Positions 4,110 to 36,751 of a stretch of 64,000 bases of DNA are shown piece after piece. The stretch lies in assembly GCA_020692355.1 (NCBI GenBank), contig JAIMKP010000006.1, positions 27,575-91,574 of the forward strand, given 5' to 3'. Source of the DNA: Desulfosporosinus sp. (GTDB lineage: Bacteria > Bacillota > Desulfitobacteriia > Desulfitobacteriales > Desulfitobacteriaceae). Under the pieces are notes generated by a model, which saw only the letters and a program-made list of their open reading frames with translations, did no database searches and had not been told where the DNA came from. The position numbers and the translations under genes are program-made. How positions within the stretch are numbered: the first letter of the stretch is position 1; each line of letters opens with the position of its first letter.

Positions 4110-5397
4110 GAAAAGCATTAATATTCAACATGTCACCCGAATTGAAGGCCACGGCAATATCGTGGTCAACGCCGGAGATGGCCACATCGAAAAAGTTGAA
4201 TGGCAGGTGCCAGAGGCGCCCAGGCTCTTTGAAGCGATGGTTCTCGGTCGCAGCTGGGAAGACATGCAAACGATCGTCAGCCGGATTTGCGGGATCTGTT
4301 CCATTTCCCATTCCCTGGCCTGTATCAAAGGTATCGAAGCGGCGATGGGCATCGTGGTATCGGAACAAACCGACAAACTACGCTTGCTCGCACATTACTC
4401 AGAGCAGTTGCAGAGCCACGTCCTGCACATCGGCTATTTGGTCGCCCCTGATCTCCTGGGTGCTAAATCAGTGGTCCCTTTAGTGGAAACACATTTTGAT
4501 CTGGTGCGTTTGGTGATAAAATTGCACCGCCAGGCCAATGCCTGGTCTGATCTCCTGGCTGGCCGCACAACCCATCCGATTACGTTTAAACCAGGTGGTT
4601 TTAGCAAGGTACCCGCTGAGGCCTCCCTGAGAGACTTACATGCCGGTCTCACGAATCTAATCCCCGACTTGAAGACCCTGTCGAGTGTCCTCCTCAGTCT
4701 GGCCGACAAACTCCCGGCCTTTGAACGGGAAACGGAGTATGTGGCTCTCAGACAACCGGATACCTATACTTTTTACCACGGCCAAATCGGGAGCTCGGAC
4801 GCGACCGAAACAGTCCCTCTGAACCGCTTTGAAACTGTGGTCAATGAATATATTTCTCCCCAGTCCACCGCCAAATGGGCACGCTGGCACCGGGAATCTT
4901 ACGCCGTGGGTGCCTTGGCACGGTTCAACTTAAACTCCGCTTATTTGTCTCCCCTAGCCCAGGAAGTGGCGCACGCCTTCGGCCTGCGGGGCAAATTGAC
5001 CAACCCGTACCTCAATACGGTCGTCCAACTGGTGGAATGTGCGCATATCGTGGAAACATCCCTCGCACTGCTGGACAGCCTGCTAACGGCCGGAGTGCAG
5101 CCCGAAACACCCAACGTTAAGCCGAGGGCGGGCGAAGGAGTCGGGTGTGTCGAAGCTCCCCGAGGCATCCTTTTCCATCGCTATGCTTTTGATGCCCAAG
5201 GGATCTGCACGGCAGCCAACCTGGTTATCCCAACCAACCAAAACCACGGCAATATTCAGAAGGATTTTGAGGCACTCGTCCCCCAGATCATCGACAGGGA
5301 TGAAGAAGAAATCAAGCTGTGGTTGGAGATGCTCGTCCGTTCCTACGACCCGTGTGTATCCTGCTCTACCCACTATTTAAACGTGGAGTTCGTATGA
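4102..5397 (+). CDS. [NiFe]-hydrogenase large (alpha) subunit, group 3b type
   Basis: 431 residues; holds the NiFe catalytic centre that takes up or evolves H2. The N-terminal metal ligands lie in RICGICSISHS (Cys 63 and 66) and the C-terminal pair in DPCVSCSTH (Cys 418 and 421). The seven residues after His 424 (YLNVEFV) are the expected peptide removed by the maturation protease after nickel insertion. Both motifs fit the NADP-linked sulfhydrogenase/group 3b lineage; this subgroup call rests on motif recognition, not a tree. It overlaps its neighbours on both sides, showing tight coupling. Confidence 0.94.
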   Translation: MSKKSINIQHVTRIEGHGNIVVNAGDGHIEKVEWQVPEAPRLFEAMVLGRSWEDMQTIVSRICGICSISHSLACIKGIEAAMGIVVSEQTDKLRLLAHYSEQLQSHVLHIGYLVAPDLLGAKSVVPLVETHFDLVRLVIKLHRQANAWSDLLAGRTTHPITFKPGGFSKVPAEASLRDLHAGLTNLIPDLKTLSSVLLSLADKLPAFERETEYVALRQPDTYTFYHGQIGSSDATETVPLNRFETVVNEYISPQSTAKWARWHRESYAVGALARFNLNSAYLSPLAQEVAHAFGLRGKLTNPYLNTVVQLVECAHIVETSLALLDSLLTAGVQPETPNVKPRAGEGVGCVEAPRGILFHRYAFDAQGICTAANLVIPTNQNHGNIQKDFEALVPQIIDRDEEEIKLWLEMLVRSYDPCVSCSTHYLNVEFV

Positions 5398-5891
5398 AAA
5401 CGGGTACCGTACTGATCGGGCTCGGCAATCCCCTGTTGCGCGATGAAGGAATCGGCGTACACCTGGAGCGGGCGCTGGCGGCGAGCCACGCCAAGAAAAC
5501 TTCTGGATTGGGCTCGCCCTCTTTTCCTCAACCCGTGGAATTCCTGGATCTGGGGACGGCAAGCTTCAGGGTGCTGCACGCTATCGCCGGGAAAGCAAGG
5601 GTCCTCTTCATCGATTGCGCACTCATGGAAGAGGCCCCCGGCACGCTCAGACGGTTTACGCTGGACGAAGTGAGAACGCGCAAGAGTCTACCCCAGTTAT
5701 CCCTCCACGAAGGCGACCTGCTGCACACCCTGGATTTGGCGCAAAAAATGGGAGAATGTCCGCCAACCGTCGTCATCTTTGGCATTCAGCCCGAGGATAT
5801 TTCGCCAGGTGAAGCTCTTTCTCCCGCACTGACAGCTTCTTTTGCCGAATATATGCGGGCCATTGAAGAGGAAGTGAACTCGTTCAGCTAA
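5394..5891 (+). CDS. Hydrogenase maturation protease (HyaD/HycI family)
   Basis: 165 residues. It is predicted to cleave the large subunit C-terminal peptide once nickel is bound. The N-terminus has the family motif IGLGNPLLRDEGIG, with the acidic metal-sensing residue; a second acidic residue lies in FLDLGT (~residue 50) and a conserved His in LSLHEGDLL (~105). The start ATG overlaps the large-subunit stop in an ATGA arrangement. The last codons and the TAA stop fall inside a dispersed repeat that starts at 5873, so the C-terminal NSFS tail is probably repeat-derived. Confidence 0.9.
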   Translation: MKTGTVLIGLGNPLLRDEGIGVHLERALAASHAKKTSGLGSPSFPQPVEFLDLGTASFRVLHAIAGKARVLFIDCALMEEAPGTLRRFTLDEVRTRKSLPQLSLHEGDLLHTLDLAQKMGECPPTVVIFGIQPEDISPGEALSPALTASFAEYMRAIEEEVNSFS

Positions 5892-5994
5892 AGCTGAACA
5901 TCGAGACTTCGGTGGGGGAGTCTACCCCCACCGAAGCAGAGAACAGAATTCCCACTCCCACTTATAGAAGTGGGAGTCTTAAACGCTTGGATAA
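5873..5994 (+). repeat. Three-hairpin dispersed repeat, copy 1
   Basis: A ~120-base element that recurs in reverse orientation at 36161-36279. It has three back-to-back hairpins: GTTCAGC/GCTGAAC (5882-5899), CTTCGGTGGGGG/CCCCCACCGAAG (5908-5936) and ACTCCCACTT/AAGTGGGAGT (5954-5978). It ends with a GGATAA-containing tail. There is no ORF. The many imperfect palindromes suggest a non-autonomous element, perhaps derived from the ends of an IS200/IS605-type transposon; that origin is inference. Confidence 0.8.
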
Positions 5995-6031
5995 ACTTCC
6001 GAAATCAGTAAAACATTTGGGCTGTATTGCC

Positions 6032-6072
6032 AACCCCACACCACTGGCGAAGTGATGTGGGGGTTTGTTTAT
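6032..6072 (+). terminator. Terminator after the hydrogenase operon
   Basis: AACCCCACACCACT (6032-6045) pairs with AGTGATGTGGGGGTT (6051-6065), followed by a TTTGTTT tract. It is nearly the same sequence as the hairpin after hypE (1265-1296). It lies between the convergent hydrogenase and pilus operons. Confidence 0.75.
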
Positions 6073-6639: not shown

Positions 6640-6696
6640 GTTTTCTTTTTACCCCATGTTCACTCTCGATGTTTTGCTTAAGCAAAACGAGTTCAC

Positions 6697-7245
6697 TCAC
6701 TTTAGCTTTAGATTGAGATTCAGGGTCTGAACTTTATCCTGCAGGGAAACATTTTGAATGTCAACCTCCTGAAAAAAGTTGGAGTCGCGCAGCTTGATCC
6801 AAAGTTGAGCCACATCGACCGGGTTGGGTACGGCAATGGTCAAGGTTAGCCCTTTGTCGGCCTGTAAGGCAAAGGCATTGACCACCGTCCCGAGCGGAAA
6901 CAACGAATTTAACTTGACCCAGAGCGGACCCGGATCATGCGCGTTTTTTTGCATGATGGTTTGAAGTTCAGTCTGACTCTGCACTTGTTTCTGCAGGGAC
7001 TTGGCTTGCTGCCAGAGCACATCCACCTCACGCAGCTGATTGATGTTTCCATTCACTTGTTTCAGATCGCTTTGCAGTTTATACTCCCATAGCCAAGGTG
7101 CCGCTGCCACGGCCATGATGAGCACAGCCCCGCCGGCCCATCTTCCCAGCATCTTGACTTCTAATCCCAAAAGCCGATGTGACGGCTTTTGGTTTATTTT
7201 CTGTTCCCAACGTAAAGCAAAATTAAACTCACGTTTTTCCCGCAT
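6697..7245 (-). CDS. pilN: PilN-like type IV pilus assembly protein
   Basis: 182 residues. The N-terminus (FNFALRWEQKINQ) resembles the short PilN tail that docks on PilM. A membrane helix follows at ~32-50, then a coiled coil (~55-90) and a small globular domain. The start lies one base after the pilM stop, so the two are almost certainly co-translated. In known systems PilN links the cytoplasmic actin-like PilM to PilO. Confidence 0.75.
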   Translation of the reverse strand: MREKREFNFALRWEQKINQKPSHRLLGLEVKMLGRWAGGAVLIMAVAAAPWLWEYKLQSDLKQVNGNINQLREVDVLWQQAKSLQKQVQSQTELQTIMQKNAHDPGPLWVKLNSLFPLGTVVNAFALQADKGLTLTIAVPNPVDVAQLWIKLRDSNFFQEVDIQNVSLQDKVQTLNLNLKLK

Positions 7246-35875: not shown

Positions 35876-36073
35876 ATGTTAGAAAATAGGAATACCATCG
35901 TCTGTTCTGCCTGTGACATCTGTCATCAAGAAAAACCCGCCGATCTGATGTGCACTTATGTACTCGAGGGCGACAACATTACTGGGGCAGACCAAACCTG
36001 CTGGTGTGTCTGTGAAGACTGCCTGCCCATTCTGGAGAAAGTTGATAACTATTATGAGGATGCCAAACGATAG
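35876..36073 (+). CDS. Small Cys-rich protein of unknown function
   Basis: 65 residues with AGAGGGGGCG just before the ATG. There are seven cysteines: a CSACDIC cluster near the N-terminus, an MCTY, and a CWCVCEDC pattern near the C-terminus, consistent with one zinc or Fe-S site. It is acidic and has no signal peptide. I do not recognise a named family. It is an isolated gene on the plus strand with its own terminator. Confidence 0.7.
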   Translation: MLENRNTIVCSACDICHQEKPADLMCTYVLEGDNITGADQTCWCVCEDCLPILEKVDNYYEDAKR

Positions 36074-36112: not shown

Positions 36113-36160
36113 TCAAGGAGAGAACTCCAAAGAGCCATGGGACGAACCCCGTGGCTCAAT

Positions 36161-36279
36161 TTATCCAATCGTGAGACTCCCACTTCTACAAGTGGGAGTG
36201 GTACCTCGTACTTTGCTTCGGTGGGGGTAGACTCCCCCACCGAAGTCTCGATGTTCAACTTTAGTTGAACGAGTTCACT
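36161..36279 (-). repeat. Three-hairpin dispersed repeat, copy 2
   Basis: The reverse complement of this stretch matches the repeat at 5873-5994 closely along its length. It has the same GTTCAAC/GTTGAAC, 12-base GC-rich CTTCGGTGGGGG/CCCCCACCGAAG and ACTCCCACTT/AAGTGGGAGT hairpins. Between hairpins two and three the two copies differ most. On the minus strand it lies downstream of trxA, as copy 1 lies downstream of the hydrogenase operon. The remaining 36280-36421 holds nothing I recognise. Confidence 0.8.
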
Positions 36280-36421: not shown

Positions 36422-36751
36422 TTAAGCATGCTTATTCAGCATCTTCACCAAATCCGCTTTGGAACGGAAACCGATGATCTTATCAACCATCTTGCCGCCC
36501 TTGAATATACCAAGGGTTGGGATGCTCATGATCCCATATTGGGATGCAACAGCGCCATGCTCATCCACATTCAGCTTGCCTACCGTGACGCGACCTAGGT
36601 ACTCATTCGCGAGTTCCTCGACGATCGGAGCGACCATGCGGCAGGGCGCGCACCAGACCGCCCAAAAATCGACTAAAACTGGCTTATCTGAGCCTAATAC
36701 CTCTTGATTCCAACTCCCTGCCGTAAAAACCTTAATATTTTCTCCAGCCAT
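36422..36751 (-). CDS. trxA: Thioredoxin
   Basis: 109 residues, a normal thioredoxin length. The fold markers are VLVDFWAVWCAPCRMVAPI (~29-46), LNVDEHGAVASQYGIMSIPT with the cis-proline, and GIFKGGKMVDKIIGF. The active site is WCAPC rather than the common WCGPC, which could shift its redox potential. Confidence 0.95.
   Translation of the reverse strand: MAGENIKVFTAGSWNQEVLGSDKPVLVDFWAVWCAPCRMVAPIVEELANEYLGRVTVGKLNVDEHGAVASQYGIMSIPTLGIFKGGKMVDKIIGFRSKADLVKMLNKHA

Follow-up and report, generated by a model that had tools for sequence, protein, structure and literature searches.

The window, by which we mean the whole 64,000-nucleotide stretch of Desulfosporosinus sp. DNA that was analysed, contains a hydrogenase maturation protease gene whose 3' end is overlapped by a small repeat, a second and inverted copy of the repeat, and a unit consisting of its right end only. 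The left and right ends of the element are abbreviated LE and RE. The features are as follows.

5394-5891, plus strand: hydrogenase maturation protease gene (HycI family; Pfam HycI, E 8.4e-22); by its translation, the last five codons and the TAA lie inside the element right end.
5874-5990, minus strand: element copy 1 (subfamily A), 117 nt, LE at 5990 and RE at 5874, from empty-site alignment against G001, a genome of the same genus, and from BLAST matching.
5874-5878, minus strand: right-end terminal pentamer TTCAC, presumed right cleavage site, from sequence comparison and the empty site.
5882-5899, minus strand: right-end hairpin, 7-bp stem, from the fold and from compensatory stem variants in 102 copies.
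5907-5936, minus strand: middle hairpin CTTCGGTGGGGG..CCCCCACCGAAG, 12-bp stem, from the single-stranded DNA (ssDNA) fold; expanded in the ~250-nt class.
5954-5977, minus strand: left-end hairpin, 10-bp stem, from the ssDNA fold.
5978-5981, minus strand: putative left guide TAAG, just 5' of the left hairpin foot, from the guide/target base association, its position by analogy with GL of IS608 (PMC5934647, in excerpt).
5991-5995, minus strand: target pentamer TTTAT (ATAAA on the plus strand), directly 5' of the left end of copy 1, from the empty site GAGGAA/ATAAAC in G001 and the TTNAT pattern of the family.
6659-6697, plus strand: right-end-only unit, consisting of the RE hairpin and GAGTTCACT, preceded by TTCACT and having neither left end nor middle hairpin.
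36160-36164, plus strand: target pentamer TTTAT of copy 2, from the sequence and the family pattern.
36165-36278, plus strand: element copy 2 (subfamily C), 114 nt, with boundaries by comparison with copy 1.

Three palindromes are present in each of the two copies, as the sequence-only reading had claimed for an element of about 120 bases at both sites, and the copies are 89% identical over the whole element length. Their alignment, which had been proposed as a check, gave 72-nt cores that are inverted and 94% complementary. The relative inversion therefore stands, but it is copy 1, not copy 2, that is written backwards, its LE-to-RE strand being the minus strand. Both copies are indeed near gene ends; copy 2, however, gives no stop codon to either of its convergent neighbours, lying about 90 nt from a 65-codon ORF (35876-36073) and 143 nt from an ORF ending at 36422. 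The count of two copies was also right as far as it went, but the right-end-only unit at about 6659-6697 had not been listed.

The exact boundaries of copy 1 come from its empty site in G001, where GAAGAGGAAATAAACTTCC corresponds to GAAGAGGAA, then 5874-5990, then ATAAACTTCC in the window. At this one empty site the insertion is precise, directly 3' of TTTAT on the minus strand and without target duplication. The element does lie in the interval 5873-5994 originally given to it, but the inserted DNA is 5874-5990 only; from the empty site, base 5873 and bases 5991-5994 belong to the target. A second empty site was sought for copy 2, and the flank adjacent to the element had no match in G001.

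The claim that the repeat supplies the stop codon of the protease gene was borne out: the gene ends with GTG AAC TCG TTC AGC TAA within the element, the TAA being at 5889-5891. According to the translations, the protein terminates with ..AIEEEINFRNQ* in the element-free G001 and with ..AIEEEVNSFS* in the window, from which we conclude that the element supplies the stop. On these predicted proteins, then, one copy has truncated and re-ended a hydrogenase-maturation gene. Re-termination was also found elsewhere in the host genome. In 50 copies the RE points towards the 3' end of a predicted gene (the ORFs being mechanical calls). For 10 of these the stop is at the junction or no more than 25 nt into the RE, five using the TGA of AGTGA; another four ORFs continue a long way into the element.

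At about 6020-6035, beyond copy 1, the window and G001 diverge; by eye, G001 (L321) continues into a small HypC-like gene, and the window genes on the far side are found on another G001 contig (L330). These genes we take to be type IV pilus-like. As judged from this comparison, a rearrangement joint lies about 30 nt from copy 1. On the second G001 contig a diverged hairpin occupies the place of the right-end-only unit of the window.

In the loci of the host genome we catalogued 105 right ends, and a left end was found within 420 nt in 89 of them. Of the 16 others, 10 reach contig ends, one (on contig C3) has its left end under an N run and five are interior; no gene-carrying element was found in the 420 nt inspected at these five. 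Read from LE to RE, the leader is succeeded by three hairpins, namely that of the LE (10-bp stem), the middle one and that of the RE (7-bp stem), after which comes GAGTTCAC. The leader occurs in the variants CCAATCGTgAG, CCAATCGTaAG and CCAAGCGTTTaAG. Terminal inverted repeats are absent, as CCAATCG.. at the left end and ..GAGTTCAC at the right end are not reverse complements; instead, subterminal hairpins are found just inside both ends, from the folds and the covarying RE stem. By approximate length, 45 of the 89 copies with both ends are of 130 nt or less, 10 are of 131-235 nt, 30 are of 236-262 nt and 4 are longer (up to about 375 nt), so that 85 of the 89 do not exceed 262 nt. Copies of the ~250-nt class correspond to the short form with its middle hairpin enlarged. 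Copies are mostly 114-262 nt long, which is too short to code for a transposase.

Folding of the element as single-stranded DNA and as RNA had been proposed as a check, and stable hairpins were obtained for both. As ssDNA, copy 1 has z = -8.2, with none of 200 shuffles folding as well, and its plus strand as RNA has z -6.5. Pairing in the RE stem is kept through double changes (CAAC/GTTG in 43 copies, CAGC/GCTG in 42, TAGC/GCTA in 5 and TTGC/GCAA in 2), and all three variable pairs are intact in 95 of 102 stems. An identical 111-nt body is shared by sixteen copies, which points to a recent spread of the family. The base following TTCAC is T in 105 of 105 copies of the host genome (the search pattern includes this T, with mismatches allowed); since in copy 1 it derives from the target, we read it as a probable +1 preference. 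In the excerpted text of PMC5934647, the corresponding preferences are C in IS608 and G in ISDra2. All three interior right-end-only units considered in the host genome (6659-6697 of the window, C40:5560 in L282 and C11:30228 in L271) have TTCAC within about 20 nt before them, as if the RE hairpin were acting as both ends; against this, TTCAC is absent before the solo right ends of two loci in relatives (L085 and L362).

A search of the genome for further copies, also proposed at the outset, was productive. The right-end pattern, allowing up to 3 mismatches, has 149 occurrences in the host genome, against 0 for the reversed control pattern. In two relatives, G003 and G014 (1 and 3 contigs), it occurs 83 and 71 times, again with 0 control matches. 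BLAST of copy 1 against the host genome, scoring 40 of 197 first-look candidates, gave at least 41 matches, including one short piece. The outcome under which the two sites are just two unrelated terminator clusters presupposed that no further copies exist, and it is contradicted by the many present. Many contigs of the host genome start or stop at the repeat (C2, C23, C27, C32, C60, C80, C84 and others), and the copies are therefore probably undercounted. Judging from these sequence matches, the element is gene-less mobile DNA with well over a hundred copies in the host genome. Across the host genome and 40 relatives, the short form matches 19 of the 41 genomes and the long-form search 25, some weakly. 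Among named records, 52 stretches carry the exact middle hairpin; they belong to Desulfosporosinus, Acididesulfobacillus acetoxydans and Peptococcaceae bacterium CEB3, and to metagenome-assembled genomes of a Desulfitobacteriaceae, a Desulfotomaculaceae and unclassified Bacillota. No match of the element was found in plasmids or phages at E 1e-5, and the exact middle hairpin was not found in viral contigs.

At least 79 of the 89 copies of the host genome have TTNAT immediately 5' of the left end, by a regular expression that also demanded the next bases, and the flanks have no other fixed base. The split is 35 TTTAT, 30 TTGAT, 13 TTCAT and 1 TTAAT; on both strands of the window, these pentamers number 113, 171, 149 and 117, respectively. 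The variable base N of the target covaries with one base of the leader, two positions before the foot of the LE hairpin (TaAG or TgAG): the former accompanies T, the latter C or G. In the host genome, leaders with the A (43 copies, targets written by N) have 33 T, 10 G and 0 C, and leaders with the G (38 copies) have 3 T, 20 G, 14 C and 1 A (Fisher 2.2e-10; 81 of the 89 copies counted, 8 not countable). The association recurs in relatives, where the 26 A leaders have 23 T, 1 G and 2 C and the 37 G leaders have 9 T, 7 G, 20 C and 1 A (p 4.8e-7). This second set comprises 63 of 79 copies with both ends present under looser patterns, the 16 without TTNAT in range being left out. When only leaders differing solely at the guide base are compared, the effect remains, with p 3.7e-5 in the host genome, on a slightly different tally with at least one misread row (44 A and 37 G leaders; Fisher 2.3e-10), and 2.4e-4 in relatives. 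Because the guide is inherited in common within a subfamily, all these p-values measure association and not the number of guide changes.

The link between the target and the bases next to the hairpin foot is therefore a statistical association in two data sets. In the sections of PMC5934647 used here, IS608 has a four-base guide 5' of the hairpin foot that pairs with the target. Here, A with T and G with C would be Watson-Crick pairs, and the data point to DNA-guide targeting as in IS608, in which the end sequence of the element appears to choose its five-letter target by base pairing. The frequent TTGAT (20 of 38 G leaders and 10 of 43 A leaders in the host genome) is not explained by such pairing, and copy 2 is an exception, having a TGAG guide with a TTTAT target. 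We lean towards the fuller reading that this is a natural, evolving DNA-guide system, in which a change of TaAG to TgAG would have re-aimed subfamilies from TTTAT to TTCAT or TTGAT, the insertions would record the guide-target code, and insertion in the host genome would have the strand polarity opposite to that of the lagging-strand rule.

Taken together, we regard it as very probable that the family is a non-autonomous, PATE-like member of the IS200/IS605 type, moving as ssDNA with a Y1 (HUH) TnpA provided in trans. The single-strand mode of action is strongly supported by the anatomy and by the guide-target covariation. In this mechanism, TnpA would bind both end hairpins on the LE-to-RE strand, and the four bases 5' of each hairpin would serve as DNA guides, the left one pairing with TTNAT (at the left end and in the target) and the right one with TTCAC. 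The excised single-stranded circle would then insert behind a TTNAT picked by the left guide. Insertion at gene ends would be a by-product, the TGA and TAA in the right end re-terminating the gene.

A full transposon with matching ends, which the sequence-only reading had named as the thing to look for, was not found: at none of the loci examined do these ends surround a tnpA or tnpB. None is enclosed at 8 TnpB and 4 Y1 places of the host genome (by pattern and by inspection of the ends), none was seen on inspection of 27 TnpB and 13 TnpA loci of the host and its relatives, and none was found by BLAST in 60 TnpB/Y1 loci of relatives. For the relatives, each search covered up to 30 loci, not every match, together with about 1.5 kb of flanking DNA; a parent that is longer, or that was outside the sample, might have escaped notice. 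As no transposase is enclosed by matching ends, the helper would act in trans, and descent from a particular IS is for the same reason only a possibility; the parental transposon may be lost or unsampled. The host genome has IS200-type TnpA genes of 136, 141 and 138 codons between stops on contigs C8, C31 and C90, and one gene for a REP-associated tyrosine transposase (RAYT). These Y1 genes are open, and none is enclosed by repeat-like ends. The C31 protein is closest to PDB 2xm3 (E 5.5e-50), which we take to be the ISDra2 transposase, and its locus is preceded by TTTGAT; the C8 protein is closest to IS608, and the C90 protein is far from either, so that the genome contains three separate IS200/IS605 TnpA lineages (L031 on C8, L032 on C31 and L033 on C90). 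The C90 gene is in a tnpA-tnpB element with right end GTTCAC, and the same end is found at the tnpB copies of C45 and C29. A long copy of our element lies 53 nt from the C29 tnpB remnant (L057, 1853-2345), whose own GTTCAC end is further downstream. The missing helper is a puzzle similar to that in the Haloquadratum PATEs, for which the consulted sections of PMC3119063 describe strain-specific insertions even though the IS200-type transposases of one strain are all pseudogenes.

The best surviving alternative, which we nevertheless consider improbable, is that the repeat is of the REP/REPIN type and is mobilised by RAYT. A RAYT match is present in 14 of the 19 genomes with the short form and in 17 of the 25 with the long-form search, and the RAYT gene of the host genome (NF047646, 82.9 bits at a cut-off of 80; contig C75) is followed, 18 nt after its stop, by a long diverged copy of the element. 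At this locus (L202, 1501-2537), that copy lies downstream and a 123-base N run upstream. However, at the other RAYT loci fetched (L203-L231), BLAST with E up to 0.5 did not detect the element. In the relatives inspected, a different motif, GAACCGTCCCC, which is a separate repeat, flanks some of the RAYT genes, and this motif also occurs beyond the element at the host RAYT, so the element copy there is read as an insertion into the RAYT flank. Co-occurrence is partial: the element is found with no RAYT match in G001 (83% complete), G003, G013, G015 and G017, RAYT is found with neither element form in G033 and G040, and with long-form matches only in G004, G009 and G018. Moreover, the tetranucleotide GTAG/GGAG, given as a REP hallmark in the excerpted part of PMC6006769, was not seen in the element. 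RAYT was accordingly rejected as the cognate enzyme, since the RAYT genes inspected in relatives have other flanks, some of them GAACCGTCCCC, and the element in the host genome lies inside that flank.

Slightly less probable still is that the repeat is immobile and kept by selection at gene ends, as a terminator of transcription or a regulatory RNA unit. In favour of this, either strand forms stable hairpins, copies lie near gene ends, mostly antisense to the neighbours, and there is one terminator-like match on the minus strand inside copy 1; against it, unrelated locations share one precise junction sequence, an empty site exists, no terminator-like site was found around copy 2, and at gathering scores the window gave no Rfam match. 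The element may still have a secondary part in termination or in the stability of mRNA. We give a very low probability to the view that the element is a TnpB guide-RNA (omega/reRNA) carrier, namely a shrunken tnpB element whose guide RNA reads into the 3' flank. Its right end does consist of a hairpin and TTCAC, like the three resident tnpB copies ending in GTTCAC, and the long copy on C29 is close to a tnpB remnant; yet BLAST of 30 TnpB loci of relatives, together with their RNA scaffold regions, revealed no similarity to the element, the sole match at the TnpB loci of the host genome (checked by pattern only) is the copy neighbouring that remnant, and G014 and G005 have the element and no TnpB match. 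A classical MITE of a DDE transposase has next to no chance of being correct. The element is indeed small, non-coding, high-copy and mostly intergenic, but terminal inverted repeats are absent and there is no duplication at the empty site of copy 1.

We return to the IS200/IS605-type reading and the strand on which insertion occurs. Transposition of IS200/IS605 elements takes place on the lagging strand, according to the excerpted text of PMC8612924. In G014, the polarity expected for the lagging strand was found in 45 of 67 listed copies (of 71), with a 2x2 Fisher value of 0.019 for a boundary that follows the GC skew, while four other boundaries gave p 0.0002 to 0.004. The origin of G014 was placed by a DnaA-like motif near base 1053, and its sampled GC skew switches between 2.62 and 2.85 Mb. 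In G003, whose origin was placed by skew only, the expected polarity was found in 35 of 83 copies (p 0.19). In the host genome, the flanks are C-rich in the element direction in 68 of 92 copies, which is the opposite polarity, and accordingly there is an antisense excess next to genes. Lagging-strand bias is not consistent between genomes. For gene context, 85 of the 89 copies were tallied: 40 are antisense to both neighbours, 9 are sense, 28 lie between divergent or convergent genes and 8 lie inside a called ORF. Target-site availability was considered as the cause and rejected: in the co-directional gaps of the window, TTNAT (N = T, G, C) occurs 11 times in the sense and 10 times in the antisense direction, and this near-equal availability, in a small sample, does not explain 40 against 9. 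Selection on orientation near genes is possible.

The family is a major repeat of the Desulfosporosinus/Acididesulfobacillus group; it lies at the ends of many contigs and alters the 3' ends of some genes. Retargeting of IS608 is known from engineering, and a natural family with two guides that differ by one base makes the pairing code testable from genomes. The unexpected orientation in the host genome is relevant to the question of whether transposition of single strands is invariably tied to the lagging strand.

As for its class, the suggestion of a MITE-like, possibly IS200/IS605-derived element was essentially right, except that it is no strict MITE, the traits of which (terminal inverted repeats and, at the empty site, target duplication) are absent. 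The IS200/IS605 trait of insertion 3' of a fixed tetra- or pentanucleotide is present in the TTNAT of the host copies. Y1 TnpA coding is absent in an element this short, which can hence be a non-autonomous relative only. The PATE features of no terminal inverted repeats, palindromes near both termini, non-coding length and no duplication (one site) are all present. Palindromes and boundaries shared with an IS605-type transposon were also looked for, and in the loci examined no tnpA or tnpB enclosed by matching ends was found. In the sections of PMC3119063 drawn on, the palindromes of PATEs and IS605-type elements are similar, some PATEs descend from such elements, and a shared parent is absent from the feature table. 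With four features of this table present and a shared parental transposon not found, we call the element PATE-like, and its sequence would make it a new family of a known kind. As far as titles and abstract openings show, the open-licence papers listed in our searches contain no description of the repeat in the Desulfosporosinus/Acididesulfobacillus group.

REP/REPIN sequences with RAYT are likewise high-copy intergenic hairpins tied to a Y1 enzyme; our family differs in the other flank motif at RAYT genes, the fixed TTNAT target and the distinct LE and RE. A further comparison is offered by Halanaerobium, presumably a Bacillota genus. The PATE-like sequence of H. hydrogeniformans is also an ends-only IS605 relative, of 271 nt, in another bacterium, but as excerpted from PMC7290912 it is single-copy and built from resident IS605 pieces. 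The PATEs of Haloquadratum walsbyi, with 177 and 194 copies in two strains, resemble our family in having no terminal inverted repeats, near-terminal palindromes, no duplication, non-coding length and high copy number; ours is instead bacterial (Bacillota), gave no IS605-type parent with the same ends when one was sought, shows guide-target covariation and has three hairpins with an expandable middle one, as compared with the excerpted PMC3119063. With ISDra2 it shares insertion 3' of a pentamer (TTGAT in ISDra2, TTNAT here), no duplication and subterminal hairpins, whereas ISDra2 carries tnpA and tnpB and our element is non-coding, with a middle base of the pentamer that varies with the subfamily (PMC2806898 and PMC8612924, both in part). 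Finally, it resembles IS608 in the four-base guide 5' of the hairpin foot, and engineered guide changes retarget IS608 insertion; the IS608 target is TTAC and its change was engineered (PMC5934647, in the sections used), while in the present family the change appears natural.
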